Assembly (NCBI GenBank): GCA_016865035.1
Contig: CP018227.1
Location: 1,582,001 to 1,646,000, forward strand
Reading direction: 5' to 3'
From: Kordiimonadales bacterium IMCC3096
GTDB lineage: Bacteria; Pseudomonadota; Alphaproteobacteria; Minwuiales; Minwuiaceae
DNA: 64,000 nucleotides
In this document: positions 4,498 through 44,111 of the stretch, one piece after another
Layout of the letters: every line of letters begins with the position of its first letter
Position numbering within the stretch: position 1 is the stretch's first letter
The notes under the pieces: generated by a model
The model's database searches: none
What the model was told of the DNA's origin: nothing
The model's input: only the letters and a program-made list of their open reading frames with translations
Made by a program: the position numbers and the translations under genes

Positions 4498-4599
4498 GGC
4501 AATGTCCGGTACCGTGCTGTGATCGTCGGGGACTCAACTTGACATGCGCGCGGACGATGCGAAATAGCGTGTGCCAACCGGATGCAAGGGAGCGGGATC

Positions 4600-5562
4600 A
4601 TGGCCGAGACAATTCACACGAAGGTTCTGATCATCGGCTCCGGCCCGGCAGGCTGTACTGCGGCCGTCTATGCCGCCCGTGCCGGGCTGGAACCGGTCAT
4701 GGTGCATGGCATCCAGCCGGGGGGCCAGCTGACCATCACCACGGATGTGGAGAACTATCCCGGCTTTGCGGAAGTCATCCAGGGTCCCTGGCTGATGCAG
4801 CAGATGGAGCAGCAGGCAGCCCATGTCGGCACCCGGATCATCCATGACATCATCGCGGAAGTGGACCTGAACAGCCGTCCCTTCGTTGCCCGGGGCGACA
4901 ATGGCGACACCTACATCGGCGAGACGCTGATCATCTCCACCGGCGCCTCGGCCCGCTGGCTGGGGCTGGAAAGCGAGCAGAAGTACCAGGGGTTCGGCGT
5001 TTCCGCCTGTGCCACCTGCGACGGTTTCTTCTATCGCGGCAAGGAAGTCTGCGTCGTCGGGGGCGGCAACACGGCAGCCGAGGAAGCCCTGTTCCTGACC
5101 AATTTCGCCACCAAGGTCTGGCTGGTGCATCGTCGTGATCAGCTCAAGGCGGAGAAGATCCTGCAGGACCGTGTCCTGAAACACCCGAAGATCGAGTGCG
5201 TCTGGGACCATGTGCTGGAGGAAGTGCTGGGTGAGCAGGACCCGCCGGGCGTCAGCGCCGTGCGACTGCGCCACGTCGCGACCGGAGAAATGCGCGAGAT
5301 TCCCATGCATGGCGTCTTCATCGCCATTGGCCACGACCCCAATACCGGACTGTTCCGGGATCAGCTGGCAATGGATTCCGAAGGTTATCTGATCACCGCG
5401 CCGGATTCGACGGCGACCAGCATTGCCGGAGTCTTCGCCGCCGGCGACGTTCAGGACAAGACCTATCGCCAGGCCGTCACGGCCGCCGGTACGGGATGCA
5501 TGGCAGCGCTGGAAGCGGAGAAGTTCATCGCCGCGAACGAGTTGGCGGAGGCCGCCGAATAG
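4600..5562 (+). CDS. trxB: Thioredoxin-disulfide reductase
   Basis: Flavoprotein that passes electrons from NADPH to thioredoxin. The FAD-binding GSGPAG is at residues 13-18, the redox-active CATC at 137-140, and the NADPH-binding GGGNTAAE at about 154-161. A C-terminal GVFAAGDVQD FAD motif completes the fold. At 320 residues it is a standard low-molecular-weight TrxR. The ATG at 4600 is chosen over the one at 4582 because AAGGGA at 4587-4592 gives a proper ribosome-binding spacing and because the chain then starts at the usual place. It is followed by the LysR gene, a pairing common in alphaproteobacteria. Confidence 0.97.
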   Translation: MAETIHTKVLIIGSGPAGCTAAVYAARAGLEPVMVHGIQPGGQLTITTDVENYPGFAEVIQGPWLMQQMEQQAAHVGTRIIHDIIAEVDLNSRPFVARGDNGDTYIGETLIISTGASARWLGLESEQKYQGFGVSACATCDGFFYRGKEVCVVGGGNTAAEEALFLTNFATKVWLVHRRDQLKAEKILQDRVLKHPKIECVWDHVLEEVLGEQDPPGVSAVRLRHVATGEMREIPMHGVFIAIGHDPNTGLFRDQLAMDSEGYLITAPDSTATSIAGVFAAGDVQDKTYRQAVTAAGTGCMAALEAEKFIAANELAEAAE

Positions 5563-5575
5563 CACCGCATAGCAG

Positions 5576-5619
5576 CCCGACGGCGAATCTTCCTGATTTT
5601 GCTTGTCGATTCCGTCGGG
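5576..5619 (+). terminator. Possible hairpin between trxB and lysR-type gene
   Basis: CCCGACGG(CG)AATC pairs with GATTCCGTCGGG across an 18-base loop, leaving a two-base bulge. It lies wholly between the two genes. There is no clean U-tract, so it may be an attenuator or RNA-stability element rather than a full terminator. Confidence 0.3.
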
Positions 5620-5637
5620 AAGGATATTTTCCCCACC

Positions 5638-6528
5638 ATGGATTGGGACAAGCTGCGCATATTTCACACGGTCGCCGAGGCCGGAAGCTTCACTCACGCA
5701 GGTGACCTGCTGAATCTCAGCCAGTCGGCTGTCAGCCGTCAGGTCAGTGCCCTGGAGGAAAGCCTGCGCACCACCCTGTTCCGCCGCCATGCCCGCGGCC
5801 TGATCCTGACGGAGCAGGGCGAACTGCTCTATCAGACCGCCCGGGACGTGTTCGCCAAGCTGGCGATGGCGGAGGCGATGCTGACCGATGCCAAGGAAAA
5901 GCCGCGCGGCGAACTGAAGGTCTCGACGACCATCGGGCTTGGTTCGACCTGGCTGACCCCGCGCATCCGCGAATTCATCGAGGCCTATCCCGATATCAAC
6001 GTCAACATGGTGCTGACCGATGGCGAGGTCGACCTGACGATGCGGGAGGCGGACATCGCCATCCGGCTCTGGCCGCCGACCCAGCCCGACCTGGTGCAGC
6101 GGAAGCTGATGACGGTGAATTTCCACCTCTATGCGTCGCCGGACTATGTGAAGCGTCGGGGCATGCCGAAGTCACCGGAGGATCTCGACCGTCATTCGCT
6201 GATCGTCTACGGCGATGACACACCGAATCCGGTCCGCGCCAGCGAATGGCTGATGGAGCTTGGCGCCAATCCGGACAAGCCGCGCAATCCGGTGCTGAAG
6301 GTCAACAATATCTACGGCCTGCTGCTGGCGGTTCAGAGCGGGCTCGGTATCGGTGCCCTGCCGGACTACATCGTTCAGGGCCACACCCAGCCGGTTCGCG
6401 TGCTGGATGACGTGGCCGGGCCGAAGTTCGACACCTACTTCGTCTATCCGGAAGAGTTGCGGAACTCCAAACGCATCACCGTTTTCCGCGATTTCCTGAT
6501 CCAGAAGGTCGCAGAAACCCGTTTCTGA
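5638..6528 (+). CDS. LysR-family transcriptional regulator
   Basis: A 296-residue LysR-type regulator. The N-terminal winged helix-turn-helix (residues 1-60) includes MDWDKLRIF, GSFTHAG and LNLSQSAVSRQVSALEE. The substrate-binding domain fills residues about 90-290, with the usual L-V-STTIGLG start. The ATG at 5638 is preferred over the upstream GTG/ATG options since MDWDKLRIF is the conserved start of this subgroup. It sits 75 bases after trxB and in the same direction. Its ligand and targets are unknown; the recurrent linkage to trxB suggests a link with redox state, which is inference only. Confidence 0.92.
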   Translation: MDWDKLRIFHTVAEAGSFTHAGDLLNLSQSAVSRQVSALEESLRTTLFRRHARGLILTEQGELLYQTARDVFAKLAMAEAMLTDAKEKPRGELKVSTTIGLGSTWLTPRIREFIEAYPDINVNMVLTDGEVDLTMREADIAIRLWPPTQPDLVQRKLMTVNFHLYASPDYVKRRGMPKSPEDLDRHSLIVYGDDTPNPVRASEWLMELGANPDKPRNPVLKVNNIYGLLLAVQSGLGIGALPDYIVQGHTQPVRVLDDVAGPKFDTYFVYPEELRNSKRITVFRDFLIQKVAETRF

Positions 6529-6654
6529 CCATTTTGGCGGCATGGCCTATTTGCAACAACCCGCAAGTAGTATTCACGTGTGACGAGAAACCCGCGGAAT
6601 ACTGCGCCTCCCAAGCCATTCGCAAACTGCATGGCCCGCGTGCAGGCGCTGCCC

Positions 6655-6816
6655 TTTATTTCCGCAGACGGAAACCCTAAATCTCCTCCTGTCGATGTTG
6701 CAGCGCAATATCACCGGGCATTCCTGGCGCCTCCCTGTTCAGCAATGTCCGACGTCTCCCAGACGTGAAGCCTCCCTGTTTGACTCGGCGGGTCGTTCGC
6801 GACCCGCCTTTTTTTT
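6655..6816 (+). ncRNA. Putative small RNA with three CCTCC segments and hairpins
   Basis: Between the lysR-type gene and a strong terminator lies a modular stretch without a credible ORF. Hairpins occur at 6659-6674 (TTTCCG/CGGAAA), 6694-6712 (GATGTTGC/GCAATATC) and 6752-6766 (ACGTCT/AGACGT with a CCC loop), and the terminator at 6787-6816 is the last. Unpaired segments between them repeat the motif CTCCTCCTGT (6681-6690), GCCTCCCTGTT (6729-6739) and GCCTCCCTGTT (6770-6780). Such C-rich, anti-Shine-Dalgarno-like segments are a hallmark of several alphaproteobacterial trans-acting sRNAs (the CcsR and cuckoo types). The 5' end and promoter are not resolved; the limits given are an estimate. Confidence 0.55.
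6787..6816 (+). terminator. Strong rho-independent terminator
   Basis: A perfect 9-bp GC-rich stem (GGCGGGTCG/CGACCCGCC) is closed by a stable TTCG tetraloop and followed by eight T residues. It is 259 bases past the lysR stop, which is too far to be just that gene's terminator and fits an independent small transcript ending here. Confidence 0.9.
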
Positions 6817-6902
6817 GCGTCAGCCAAAAATGAACAGCGGCTCAGGAACTGGTGGCGAAACCGGTGCAATGACCGGAAACAGGACGGCGATCGTGTCCCC
6901 CG

Positions 6903-7034
6903 CGCGATTCATGTGCGGACCCCGGCCTGCCCTCTCGCGATTCATATGTGGACCCCGGCCTGCCCTCTCCCCCTCCCGACCACCCATTAGGATAGCCCCG
7001 TGGGTGGTCGGGAGGGGGAGAGGGCAGGCCGGGG
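6903..7034. repeat. Long palindromic repeat, copy A, with duplicated arm
   Basis: The core at 6953-7034 has perfect 34-bp inverted arms (6953-6986 and 7001-7034) around a 14-base spacer containing AGGATAG. Just before it, a 33-bp unit is repeated in tandem (6903-6935 and 6936-6968, two mismatches); it contains the outer half of the left arm. Four related palindromes lie at 23579-23659, 36887-36956, 40177-40240 and 43998-44078. No ORF is inside. It resembles REP/MITE-like non-autonomous elements. Here it sits between the small RNA and the 3' end of an acyl-CoA dehydrogenase gene. Confidence 0.9.
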
Positions 7035-7052
7035 CCATCAGACGACTGCAGT

Positions 7053-8219
7053 CTAGCGCTTCAGGCCCAGCAGTTTCCGCGCGACGACCCAGCGATGAAC
7101 TTCGGACGGTCCGTCGTAGATGCGCATCAGCCGGATCTGGGCAGCCATCTGGTGCAGCGGCAGTTCTCGGGTCATTCCCATGGCACCAAAGGTCTGCATG
7201 GCATTGTCCAAGACTTCCCAGGCCATCTCCGTGGCATAGACCTTGATCATGGAGACATCGGTGCGGACATCCTGTCCCTCATCCAGCTTCCAGGCGGTCT
7301 CATAGGCCATCAGGCGACTGGCCCGGATCTTCGCGGCGGCGTCGGCAACCCACCACTGGATCGCCTGGCGCTCGGCCAGCGGGGCGCCGAAAGTCTGCCG
7401 CTGGGGGGCGAATTCGCAGATCATCTCCAGTGCGCGCTCCGCCATGCCGATGCACCATGACGCCATCTCCAGCCTGCGGGTGGACAGGCGGACCTGCATC
7501 GGCGCGAACCCCTGTCCCTCCTTCCCCAGCAGATTGGCGTGCGGCACCCGGCAATCCTCCAGCGCGATCTCGTAGGTGAAGGCCCCGCCGATCATCGGGA
7601 TACGCCGCGCGATGTTGAAACCCGGCGTGCCCCGGTCAACCAGAAAGGCGGAGATGCCGCCGCGCGCGCCCTTCTCCCGGTCCGTCACGGCCATCAGGAT
7701 GGTGAAATCCGCTTCCTCGGCCCGGCTGATCCAGATCTTGGAGCCGTTGATGACCCAGTCATCCCCGTCCCGCACCGCGCGCGTCCGCATGCCGGCCGGA
7801 TCCGCCCCGGCACCGGGTTCCGAGATGCCGATGGCGGAGACCGTGCCGCCCTTCACATAGGGTTCCAGATAGCGCTTGCGCTGGTCCTCGTTCACCGTGG
7901 CCATCAGCATCCGCAGGTTCGGCGAGTCCGGCGGCAGCATGTAGGGGGTGACGGTGCGCCCGAGTTCGATGTTGACCCCGATCATCGCCACGGTGGGCAG
8001 GTCGACGCCGCCGACATCCTCCGGCGCGTCCAGACCCCAGAGCCCGAGTTCCCGCGAGCGGGCATCGATGCGCGCGCGCTCCTCCGACGACAGGGCCGCA
8101 CCCTCGCCCCGTGCCTCCCGCGCCAGCACCTCCGGCTCCAGCGGCATGAGTTCGTCCTGCACGAACCGCTGCACCAGGTCGCGCAGCATCCGGTGCTCTT
8201 CACTCAGTTCGAAATCCAT
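7053..8219 (-). CDS. Acyl-CoA dehydrogenase family protein
   Basis: A 388-residue flavoprotein of the acyl-CoA dehydrogenase superfamily, oxidising an acyl-CoA at alpha-beta and passing electrons to ETF. The N-terminal helical domain begins MDFELSEEHRMLRDLVQRF. The middle beta-domain carries GISEPGAGADPAG and VINGSKIWISRAEEADF, and the C-terminal helical domain has QTFGAPLAERQAIQWWVAD and RIYDGPSEVHRWVVARKLL. The ATG at 8219 has GGGGAGGA upstream. It stands alone, with its 3' end next to repeat copy A. Substrate chain length cannot be read; the IYDGPSEVHR ending fits branched or medium-chain subfamilies. Confidence 0.9.
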   Translation of the reverse strand: MDFELSEEHRMLRDLVQRFVQDELMPLEPEVLAREARGEGAALSSEERARIDARSRELGLWGLDAPEDVGGVDLPTVAMIGVNIELGRTVTPYMLPPDSPNLRMLMATVNEDQRKRYLEPYVKGGTVSAIGISEPGAGADPAGMRTRAVRDGDDWVINGSKIWISRAEEADFTILMAVTDREKGARGGISAFLVDRGTPGFNIARRIPMIGGAFTYEIALEDCRVPHANLLGKEGQGFAPMQVRLSTRRLEMASWCIGMAERALEMICEFAPQRQTFGAPLAERQAIQWWVADAAAKIRASRLMAYETAWKLDEGQDVRTDVSMIKVYATEMAWEVLDNAMQTFGAMGMTRELPLHQMAAQIRLMRIYDGPSEVHRWVVARKLLGLKR

Positions 8220-8367
8220 CACGTGTCCTCCCCTGCAAGCTGCTGATCCTGATGCGGTTGGCAGCGCGCAGCAAGACAGTTGGTCTCCGGGCTTGATTGG
8301 TACCGGGGTGCGCGGCACCTATGTGTCCGGGTCCCGGCACCTGCCATCATGGAAGAGGCGCACCGCA

Positions 8368-9719: not shown

Positions 9720-11594
9720 TCAGCCCCCCTGTTTCATGCTGGGTGCCGCTGCGGCGCTATCGGGTCCGCCCTCCACCACGATCTTCCGGAACATGCCGGA
9801 ATCGGCGTGATAGGACAGGTGGCAGTGAAACGCCCATTCGCCCGGCGCATCCACCTCTGTCTCCATGTAGACCGTGGTGGCCGGCGCGACGCTGATCACG
9901 TGTTTCACCGGATTCCACTTGCCGCTGCCATTGTCCAGGATCGACCACATGCCATGCAGGTGCATGGGGTGGGTCATCATGGTGGTGTTGACGAACTTGA
10001 AACGCACCCGCTCCCCGTAGGTCAGGCGTATCGGGTCGGCATCGGCATACTTCACACCGTTGATCGACCAGATGTAGCGTTCCATGTTGCCGGTCAGCTC
10101 CAGTTCGATCTCGCGCGTTGCGGGCCGGTGCTCGTAGAGCGGCTTCTGCGCCTTCAGATCGGCATAGGACAGGAACCTGCCCCCGTTGGCGGCTTCGGGA
10201 CGCAAGCCACTGCCCGGTGCGTAGAACGGGTCAGGACGACCCGTTTCGCCCTTCGGCATGGCGCCGTGGCCCATCGCGGCATGGTCCATCTCGCCCTTCG
10301 GCATCGAACCATGACCCATCGCGGCGTGATCCACCTCGCCCTTCGGCATCGAACCATGACCCATCGCGGCGTGATCCACCTCGCCCTTCGGCATCGAACC
10401 GTGACCCATCGCGGCGTGATCCACCTCGCCCTTCGGCATCGAACCGTGACCCATCGCGGCGTGATCCACCTCGCCCTTCGGCATCGAACCGTGACCCATC
10501 GCGGCGTGATCCATGGAACCATGGTCCATGCCGCCATGACCGGCCATGTCGCCCATGGTCAGCAAGGGCGGTTCACGGAGATCAGGAACTTCGGCGGCCA
10601 TGCCCTCACGTGGCGCCAGCGTGCCGCGCGCAAAGGCCGTCCGCCCCATCGATTCACCATATATCGTGTAGGCGCGATCCTCCGTCGGCTGCACGATGAC
10701 GTCATAGGTCTCCGCGACGGCAATGCGGAACTCGTCAACCACGACCGGCTGCACGTCATTGCCGTCGGCCTGCACGACGGTCAGCTTCAGCCCCGGAATC
10801 CGGATGTCGAAATAGGTCATCGCCGAGGAGTTGATGAAGCGCAGCCTTACCCTCTCGCCGGGCCGGAAGAGGCCGGTCCAGTTCTGCTCCGGGCCCTTGC
10901 CGTTGATCAGCGGAGTGAAACCCTGCAGGTCCTCGACATCGGTCGGCATCATGCGCATGTCACCCCAGTCGCCGCGGTCGTCCAGCGCCGCGCGGACGCC
11001 CTTCTCCTTCGCATCATCAAGGAAGTCGAACAGGGTGCGCTGCCTGCGGTTGTAGTAGTCCGGCATCATCTTCAGATTGCGCATGATCCGGTCGCCGGAG
11101 TGCGGATGCGCATCGGCAAGCTGGATCACGTATTCGCGGTCATAGCGGTACGGCTCCCGGCCCTCCGGCTCGATGATGATGGCCCCGTAGGCCCCGTCCG
11201 GCTCCTGGAACCCGGAGTGGCTGTGGAACCAGTAGGTTCCGCTCTGCACTATGGGAAACCGGTAGGTGAAGGTCTCGCCAGGTGCGATGCCGGGATAGCT
11301 GATCTTGGGAACGCCATCCTGCTGATAGGGCAGGATCAGCCCGTGCCAGTGGATCGAGGTGTCCTCGTCGAGGTTGTTGGTCACGTTGATCGTGACCTCC
11401 TCGCCCTCCCGGAACCGCAGCACGGGCCCGGGGCTGGCGCCGTTGAAGCCGACACCCGAGCGCGTGAAGGTACCGGTGTCGATCCTTACCGGATCAACGG
11501 TCAGATTGTATTCGCCGGCCATGGCACCGCCCCCGAGGGCAAGTGCCAAACCGGTTCCGAGCATTGCGGCCCGGAGCATGGTGATGCGTGACAT
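9720..11594 (-). CDS. copA: Multicopper oxidase CopA (copper resistance)
   Basis: A 624-residue periplasmic multicopper oxidase that binds and probably oxidises Cu(I). It has an N-terminal signal (residues 1-26) without an obvious twin-Arg. Copper ligands are visible in HWHGLILP and HSHSGFQ near the N-terminus and HPMHLHGMW and HCHLSYHADSGMF near the C-terminus. Between them is a Met/His-rich linker of six 15-residue units (DHAAMGHGSMPKGEV type) that should bind copper. Such Met-rich segments are usual in CopA, but the near-identity of these units points to recent expansion. It precedes copB in the operon. Confidence 0.96.
   Translation of the reverse strand: MSRITMLRAAMLGTGLALALGGGAMAGEYNLTVDPVRIDTGTFTRSGVGFNGASPGPVLRFREGEEVTINVTNNLDEDTSIHWHGLILPYQQDGVPKISYPGIAPGETFTYRFPIVQSGTYWFHSHSGFQEPDGAYGAIIIEPEGREPYRYDREYVIQLADAHPHSGDRIMRNLKMMPDYYNRRQRTLFDFLDDAKEKGVRAALDDRGDWGDMRMMPTDVEDLQGFTPLINGKGPEQNWTGLFRPGERVRLRFINSSAMTYFDIRIPGLKLTVVQADGNDVQPVVVDEFRIAVAETYDVIVQPTEDRAYTIYGESMGRTAFARGTLAPREGMAAEVPDLREPPLLTMGDMAGHGGMDHGSMDHAAMGHGSMPKGEVDHAAMGHGSMPKGEVDHAAMGHGSMPKGEVDHAAMGHGSMPKGEVDHAAMGHGSMPKGEMDHAAMGHGAMPKGETGRPDPFYAPGSGLRPEAANGGRFLSYADLKAQKPLYEHRPATREIELELTGNMERYIWSINGVKYADADPIRLTYGERVRFKFVNTTMMTHPMHLHGMWSILDNGSGKWNPVKHVISVAPATTVYMETEVDAPGEWAFHCHLSYHADSGMFRKIVVEGGPDSAAAAPSMKQGG
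10246..10515. repeat. Six 45-bp tandem repeats inside copA
   Basis: Six in-frame 45-bp units begin at 10246, 10291, 10336, 10381, 10426 and 10471. The first (C-terminal in the protein) is the most diverged and the central ones are nearly identical. Each encodes a 15-residue Met/His-rich copper-binding segment. Unit number is expected to vary between strains by slippage or unequal recombination. Confidence 0.95.
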
Positions 11595-23578: not shown

Positions 23579-23659
23579 CTGTTCCATCCCTCTCCCCCTC
23601 CCGGCCATCCAATCAGGATAGTGCCGTGGGTGGCCGGGAGGGGGAGAGGGATGGAACAG
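23579..23659. repeat. Long palindromic repeat, copy B
   Basis: Arms of 33 bp (23579-23611 and 23627-23659, one mismatch) with a 15-base spacer containing AGGATAG. Inner arm sequence is shared with copy A, while the outer ends (CTGTTCCAT) define a second subtype also seen in copies D and E. It lies in the divergent gap between the glutamine-synthetase-like gene and the formylglutamate amidohydrolase gene, ending 24 bases before the latter's ATG, so it may affect its expression. Confidence 0.9.
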
Positions 23660-36886: not shown

Positions 36887-36956
36887 CCAGCCCTCTCCCC
36901 CTCCCGACCACCCACTGGATTATCCTTATGGGTGGTCGGGAGGGGGAGAGGGCTGG
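36887..36956. repeat. Long palindromic repeat, copy C
   Basis: Perfect 28-bp arms (36887-36914 and 36929-36956) around a 14-base spacer with TATCC, that is, in the opposite orientation to copies A and B. It lies in the transcribed gap between glyA and nrdR, where its RNA would form a very stable hairpin and could limit nrdR readthrough or protect the glyA mRNA. Confidence 0.9.
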
Positions 36957-40176: not shown

Positions 40177-40240
40177 CCCTCTCCCCCTCCCGGCCACCCA
40201 CGCAAGTATCCTGAAATGGGTGGCCGGGAGGGGGAGAGGG
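40177..40240. repeat. Long palindromic repeat, copy D
   Basis: Perfect 24-bp arms (40177-40200 and 40217-40240) around a 16-base spacer with TATCC. The left flank keeps the CTGTTCCAT end seen in copies B and E, but the right flank has diverged, so this copy is decayed at one end. It lies between two plus-strand genes, in their likely common transcript, 31 bases before the next ATG. Confidence 0.88.
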
Positions 40241-43963: not shown

Positions 43964-44111
43964 CCCCGGCCTGCCCTCTCGGGAGTCTGTTTGCGGCCTG
44001 TTCCATCCCTCTCCCCCACCCGGCCACCCACGGGAGTATCCTTATTGGGTGGCCGGGTGGGGGAGAGGAATGGAACAGTCCAACGACAAACCGGGAAAGG
44101 GCGGGCCGGGG
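43964..44111. repeat. Long palindromic repeat, copy E, nested in older copy
   Basis: The inner palindrome (43998-44078) has 33-bp arms with one mismatch (43998-44030 and 44046-44078) and a 15-base TATCC spacer. Outside it, CCCCGGCCTGCCCTCTC at 43964-43980 and GGGCGGGCCGGGG at 44099-44111 match the two outer ends of copy A. So a copy of the CTGTTCCAT subtype seems to have entered one of the CCCCGGCC subtype, or the ends recombined. It lies between the dioxygenase beta-subunit gene and the crotonase gene. Confidence 0.85.

Follow-up and report, generated by a model that had tools for sequence, protein, structure and literature searches.

A predicted small RNA gene behind an LsrB/VtlR-like regulator gene in many Alphaproteobacteria, a probable counterpart of AbcR by position

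Positions 6690-6816 (forward strand) of the 64,000-nucleotide stretch of DNA analysed here (the window), taken from the 4.29 Mb, single-contig genome of Kordiimonadales bacterium IMCC3096, very probably hold a small regulatory RNA gene that adjoins a conserved LysR-type regulator gene in many Alphaproteobacteria. The predicted RNA very probably fills the place that AbcR occupies in rhizobia and their relatives, and by analogy it probably turns down nutrient-transporter genes. On sequence grounds, the best reading is that of an AbcR counterpart by position whose seed resembles those of SorX and MmgR. We consider it fairly likely that, with such a seed, it acts as AbcR does, as an LsrB-activated, stand-alone, Hfq-dependent and trans-acting sRNA that represses transport mRNAs. 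Conservation and covariation, together with a promoter-like arrangement and a terminator, give good support to the view that the region encodes a regulatory sRNA, as proposed in a first-pass annotation, and that this predicted RNA carries several anti-Shine-Dalgarno (anti-SD) segments.

A conserved locus and a widespread RNA core

The gene order of the locus is trxB, LysR gene, sRNA element and a convergent acyl-CoA-dehydrogenase-like gene (7053-8318, reverse strand; model matches below cut-offs). trxB, encoding thioredoxin-disulfide reductase (4582-5562, forward strand; TIGR01292 at 397.7 bits, cut-off 343.45), is the first gene of the conserved locus. The LysR gene follows at 5599-6528 (forward strand; its start may be the ATG at 5638, MDWDKLRIFH). 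Among the 25 of 42 matches listed, no NCBIfam model exceeded its cut-off for this gene, and we call it LsrB/VtlR-like by its locus, since it is linked to trxB and, in relatives, to AbcR. Its closest named records are Minwuia MAGs with 99% and 94% identity. Relatives of the protein were found at E<=1e-70 in 106 of 190 class genomes, and 81 of 103 class loci of these relatives had trxB inside the fetched stretch. In A. tumefaciens the order is described as trxB-vtlR-abcR1-abcR2 (PMC7486931), and S. meliloti AbcR1/2 are placed between lsrB and SMc01226 (PMC7143759). LsrB of A. tumefaciens is described as a redox sensor that works through cysteines (PMC11975290). The window's protein has no Cys, and among the 103 class relatives the aligned part, to which these counts apply, contains none in 59 and two or more in 14; thiol redox sensing thus probably does not apply to the LsrB-like protein of the window. 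Elsewhere in the window, a multicopper-oxidase-like ORF (recognised by eye; 9720-11594, reverse strand) carries about six tandem Met/His-rich repeats (DHAAMGHGSMPKGEV).

The sRNA core was represented by a covariance model, R1, built with a hand-supplied structure from 50 sequences (alignment A1); these were 50 of 62 stretches that had themselves been picked by a CCTCCC-type motif plus terminator, a possible source of bias. Within A1, C25 and T27-G32 are invariant. RNAalifold found no structure on the plain MAFFT alignment, probably owing to misaligned terminators of unequal length. A DNA search matched the sRNA in 39 of 96 genomes, the source genome included. In the covariance search, which the first-pass annotation had itself suggested, R1 matched 95 of the 190 class genomes (E<=0.01); the core is therefore not lineage-specific, which that annotation had raised as a possibility, and a narrower spread is suggested only for the extra hairpin whose loop carries CCTCCCTGTT. 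In the source genome, R1 matched a single place up to E 10. Genome G001, of the same genus, gave no DNA match and a best R1 match of 16.1 bits, which reflects either loss or an assembly gap (99% complete, 230 contigs).

Location of the matches ties the core to the regulator. Of the R1 hits of at least 48 bits (n=79), 55 follow an LsrB-like gene in the same orientation at a distance of at most 700 nt; the other 24 comprise 16 located elsewhere and 8 whose genomes gave no LysR hit at E<=1e-70. Five of the 16 are within 6 kb downstream, and one, at 734 nt, is the third of the tandem copies in G175. Good R1 matches without such a LysR hit were seen in G092, G153, G021, G060, G035 and G186, several of which are small genomes; in these the RNA may have survived the loss of its regulator or moved away from it. 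A search of 80 named LysR loci gave 53 R1 matches up to E 0.05, some of them weak; the matched records include Azospirillum griseum, two Thalassospira species with two copies each, Kiloniella majae, and one MAG each of Niveispirillum and Nisaea. Two to three tandem cores stand behind the LysR gene at L039 (2595-3193, G175), L341 (about 1500-1790, G007) and the Thalassospira loci L271 and L273, an arrangement reminiscent of tandem abcR1-abcR2. Twenty LsrB loci that lacked a good R1 match had no Rfam match up to E 0.05.

Covariation was evaluated on 65 R1 matches from 100 of the 103 fetched LsrB loci (alignment A2; L038, L135 and L138 left out). In this alignment, which is fitted to the R1 model, 12 of 14 pairs are changed on both sides (reached by 5 of 500 shuffles), 92.9% of paired cells are pairs versus 72.8% in shuffles (0/500), and the covariation score is 0.478 versus 0.127 (0/500). 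Motif and promoter counts given below refer to 62 of these 65 matches, two extra L039 copies and the 22-bit L107 match having been dropped.

Promoter and parts of the predicted RNA

The 3' limit of the RNA is given by an intrinsic terminator (6787-6816, forward strand) with a 9-bp stem, TTCG loop and T8, as the first-pass annotation had recognised; in A2, 7 of its 8 modelled pairs are changed on both sides. The 5' limit, at 6689-6691, is inferred from promoter spacing. A start near 6690 would yield an RNA of about 127 nt and would put the LsrB-box-like site GCATGGCCCGCGT (6629-6641, forward strand; imperfect) at about -61 to -49. For S. meliloti, an LsrB box GCAT-N3-TG-N3-T is described at -61 to -49 of PabcR1, with RNA lengths of 121 nt for AbcR1 and 114 nt for AbcR2 (PMC8844928). 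The window's site has GCAT at 6629 and CC in place of the inner TG; loci L005 and L006 carry the exact box GCATAGCTGAATT at the same offset. The predicted -35 hexamer CTTTAT (6654-6659, forward strand) and -10 hexamer CTAAAT (6677-6682, forward strand) recur in L002-L006, five relatives from the genus, with the 17-nt spacing kept and CTAAGT, CTAAAT or CTACAT at the place of the latter. A sigma-70 scan of the region, whose consensus is of the E. coli type, called no promoter.

Class-wide, the exact published box is present in 13 of the 62 loci (100 shuffles: 1.5 on average, at most 5), and the palindrome TTGC-N2-4-GCA occurs 21 times in the loci, preceded at 67-70 nt by GCAT in 13 cases; neither count is circular. 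Aligned on GCAT, the loci read GCATGGCTG..., and across the class a -10-like hexamer follows at about 48 nt, a consensus that is partly circular in that GCAT was picked partly by its own -10 and TG. The GATGTTGC palindrome was also considered as a LysR operator and dropped, as it lies just past the predicted start, with sites of the published box type about 69 nt upstream of it.

These limits change how the pyrimidine-rich segments are counted. In the first-pass annotation, three hairpins alternated with three CCTCC-type segments over 6655-6816. The letters are there (CTCCTCCTGT at 6683-6692, GCCTCCCTGTT at 6729-6739 and 6770-6780), but hairpin 1 (6660-6674) falls in the N17 spacer of CTTTAT/CTAAAT and the first CTCC segment is likewise in the promoter region. 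Since the promoter hexamers are kept in L002-L006 while hairpin 1 and this segment are not, both are probably promoter DNA outside the RNA. The number of three anti-SD-like segments nevertheless stands for the RNA itself, for a C-rich hairpin, ACGTCTCCCAGACGT, had been missed: one copy of CCUCCCUGUU is in a hairpin loop, CUCCCA belongs to a second hairpin, and the other CCUCCCUGUU copy precedes the terminator. The fold of 6690-6816 has a z-score of -4.63 against dinucleotide shuffles and is better than all 200; for 6655-6816 the z-score is -4.55, again beating 200 of 200.

The predicted RNA begins with a 5' hairpin, GATGTTGC-AGC-GCAATATC (6694-6712, forward strand), at whose position YTGC-N2-4-GCAR is kept in 20 of 62 loci (shuffled mean 0.59, maximum 4). 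The apical part of the next hairpin (6715-6751, forward strand) presents anti-SD copy 1 (GCCUCCCUGUU, 6729-6739). Over six distinct sequences, from the genus plus G065, 7 of 12 pairs of this hairpin are changed on both sides, and the covariation score of the whole structure over the same six was reached by 0 of 500 shuffles. At the equivalent place, G007 and G008, from two other genera of the family, have by eye hairpins with CU-rich loops and unrelated stems. CU-rich loops just 5' of the CUCCCA hairpin were counted in 11 of 62 loci (mononucleotide shuffles: mean 4.5, maximum 11), a weak signal class-wide.

The C-rich hairpin (6752-6766, forward strand) has CUCCCA at 6756-6761, the letters of AbcR motif M1, and 5 of its 6 pairs are altered on both sides in A2. 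Anti-SD copy 2 (GCCUCCCUGUU, 6770-6780, forward strand), single-stranded or in a weak 4-bp loop, is the predicted main seed. CTCCCA is found at the hairpin position in 43 of 62 loci and CCTCCCTG at anti-SD copy 2 in 58 of 62, high counts that are favoured by the choice of loci with a model built on the same core. ORFs of 62 aa (6580-6768) and 183 aa (6695-7246) cross the region, which had been described as free of a credible ORF; indels of 1 to 3 nt in relatives and the covarying stems argue against a coding role.

A long inverted repeat (6942-7045; 45-nt arms, 89% complementary, 14-nt spacer) starts 126 nt past the terminator. Low-E microRNA matches at 6924-7059 correspond to this repeat and were discarded as RNA families. 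Further inverted pairs of the arm core lie at 23588-23650, 36891-36952, 40177-40240 and 44007-44069; the five inverted pairs in the window, with more in the genome, are a dispersed palindromic repeat family.

Relation to known RNA families

An Rfam scan of the window at gathering scores returned no family, and the RNA is not assignable to any Rfam family tested. Matches at the element remained below gathering for SorX (RF02784; 35.3 bits versus 46.6), suhB/MmgR (RF00519; 30.7 versus 41) and SorY (32.6 versus 111), and three other families were likewise far below. Rfam ar15 (gathering 40), searched up to E 10 in the source genome, gave only 13.2 bits at another place; over the 190 class genomes it had no match, a result that is uninformative because the control was silent too. 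At LysR loci, ar15 scored 44.3 bits in Pleomorphomonas, 25.1 in Roseibium and 24.1 in Kaistia; in several Hyphomicrobiales it is thus AbcR that occupies this slot.

With AbcR1/AbcR2 (alpha-r15, RF02345), a family assigned to Rhizobiaceae and Brucellaceae (PMC3712013), the window RNA shares the slot behind trxB-lsrB/vtlR, a GCAT site near the predicted -61 (the box itself being imperfect in the window), a length of about 120 nt, and the succession of CUCCCA hairpin, C-rich motif and terminator. For the Brucella AbcR RNAs, CUCCCA in the first hairpin followed by GUUCCC is described (PMC5461406). The window RNA differs in that it fails Rfam ar15, has CCUCCCUGUU as second motif where AbcR has GUUCCC, possesses an extra hairpin with another CCUCCCUGUU copy, and is encoded by a single gene rather than in tandem. 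Among the 80 named loci, TGTTCCCCTCTGGAAGG was found in 12 and a shorter variant in 5 more, mostly in records named as Hyphomicrobiales genera, with CTCCCA just upstream in 8 of these 17. The AbcR GGAAGG motif (GUUCCC-CUCUGGAAGG or variant) was seen in 0 of 103 class LsrB loci versus 17 of 80 named loci, a difference behind which may lie a class draw poor in Hyphomicrobiales.

The core ACCUCCCUGUUGGA plus terminator of SorX, from Rhodobacter, is close to that of the window, although the window RNA scores under the SorX gathering value. SorX itself is described as repressing the polyamine-transporter gene potA (PMC9438474). Behind the LsrB-like gene of L136, perhaps from Rhodobacterales, SorX was above gathering (52.3 versus 46.6). 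MmgR/SisA-D (alpha-r8, RF00519) share with the window RNA the anti-SD 10-mer UUUCCUCCCU after a hairpin, followed by the terminator. The alpha-r8 RNAs are described as having UUUCCUCCCU in common, as FGase-linked and as present in several copies in many genera, and SisA as repressing an mRNA through UUUCCUCCCU (PMC12559287). The window RNA, below the MmgR gathering score, has as neighbours the LysR gene and the acyl-CoA-dehydrogenase-like gene rather than an FGase gene, and the genome encodes a separate MmgR (C1:1223601, 66.9 bits) beside an FGase-like gene recognised by eye. By analogy, the window RNA probably works like AbcR, SorX and SisA.

The kinship with CcsR and cuckoo RNAs that the first-pass annotation had proposed was not borne out: the RNA is in the AbcR place behind an LsrB/VtlR-like gene, its core resembles SorX and MmgR, and CCUCCUCCC, the NfeR1/CcsR-related motif, is absent from 6690-6816. 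Likeness to NfeR1 (alpha-r14) and CcsR/cuckoo RNAs is confined to the presence of more than one anti-SD motif, in part within hairpin loops whose stems vary. CcsR derives from the 3' UTR of ccaF1, a DUF1127 gene, whereas the gene upstream of the window RNA encodes a LysR-type regulator. NfeR1-type RNAs are described with an anti-SD motif in all loops (PMC7143759), and in related S. meliloti models this motif is CCUCCUCCC (PMC3927594), which the window RNA lacks. No family named NfeR1 or CcsR/cuckoo was in the list of Rfam families scored at the element.

Candidate targets, alternative readings and meaning

The RNA would be transcribed from the predicted promoter near 6690, and the neighbouring LsrB/VtlR-like regulator would activate it through the box near -61. 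It would act in trans, probably with Hfq. Its two CCUCCCUGUU copies and CUCCCA would base-pair at the ribosome-binding sites of numerous mRNAs, mainly those of solute-binding transport proteins, and, to judge from AbcR, SorX and SisA, pairing would repress translation.

Target prediction from the complement of the CCTCC segments, also proposed in the first-pass annotation, covered the whole genome. CAGGGAGG-N4-10-ATG occurs at 42 sites (3 read backwards); this total includes the complement of the RNA gene itself, and one site enters it twice. The control CCGGGAGG occurs at 41 (4 backwards), 10 of them copies of a dispersed repeat. Given 41 sites for the control, the number of target sites proves nothing, and target enrichment was dropped as proof. 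Pfam domains were sought in 20 of 32 target ORFs, selected by eye, and in 10 of 17 control ORFs, drawn from 30 of the 41 control places; solute-binding proteins made up 5 of the 20 and 1 of the 10, too few to separate the sets. The five are two NMT1_3, two DctP and one LivK-like Peripla_BP_6 protein. At six ORF-bearing sites the match extends to AACAGGGAGG, and the genes encode three solute-binding proteins, an Rrf2 regulator, a TetR regulator and FliJ. The LivK-like gene has GAAACAGGGAGG at its ribosome-binding site, and of its six orthologues in the genus, its own copy included, five have AACAGGGAGG and the sixth ACAGGGAGG; for the gene of L174, AACAGGGAGG is kept in 4 of 7. LivK is described as an AbcR1 target in S. 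meliloti (PMC3712013). These data are no more than suggestive of solute-transport mRNAs as targets.

The position of 55 of the 79 stronger R1 hits close behind lsrB, on the same strand, would also suit an RNA 6690-6816 that does not arise from a promoter of its own. We regard this as unlikely, since the spacing of GCAT and palindrome is kept in 13 of 21 cases while the length of the intergenic region varies, since -35/-10-like hexamers are kept in the genus, and since AbcR1 is described at the equivalent slot with its own LsrB-dependent promoter (PMC8844928). Alternatively, the RNA could be one more MmgR/alpha-r8 paralogue with no special tie to LsrB, as its 30.7 bits with suhB/MmgR and the UUUCCUCCCU shared by the multicopy alpha-r8 RNAs of many genera (PMC12559287) might suggest. 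Its score is however under the gathering value of 41, the genome's own MmgR at 66.9 bits stands by the FGase-like gene, R1 finds only the LsrB-locus RNA in this genome up to E 10, and R1 is linked to LsrB loci in general, which makes such a paralogue quite improbable.

The terminator does stand behind lsrB, and the region might be merely lsrB terminator and 3' UTR, with hairpins devoid of any trans function. Yet 58 of 62 loci retain CCTCCCTG, a segment not part of the modelled stems, while the stems change by compensation, and 43 of 62 retain CTCCCA, in loci chosen with a core-based model that favours such counts; we consider this reading highly improbable. The reading of an AbcR-like sRNA gene with its own promoter is the one we retain.

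Work on AbcR has centred on rhizobia, Agrobacterium and Brucella. The present data suggest that a regulator-sRNA pair of the AbcR layout, with a different seed, also exists in Azospirillum, Thalassospira, Kiloniella, Minwuia and others. In the literature searched we found no description of an R1-type RNA at an LsrB locus, and an earlier notice is possible. We tentatively propose, as a possibility that we rate somewhat below even, that the LsrB-plus-sRNA module is ancestral to most Alphaproteobacteria and that AbcR, SorX-like RNAs and the window type form one positional lineage, in which promoter, C-rich hairpin and terminator stayed, the second seed was rewritten and anti-SD hairpins were added. 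As most LsrB-like proteins, this one included, have no Cys pair, the ancestral signal would not have been thiol redox, and Cys-free LsrB-like proteins would set the module apart from thiol redox sensing. The wider occurrence of this regulator-sRNA pair would, if true, connect AbcR with SorX and with MmgR-like RNAs, and the ancestral part of the module would become testable.
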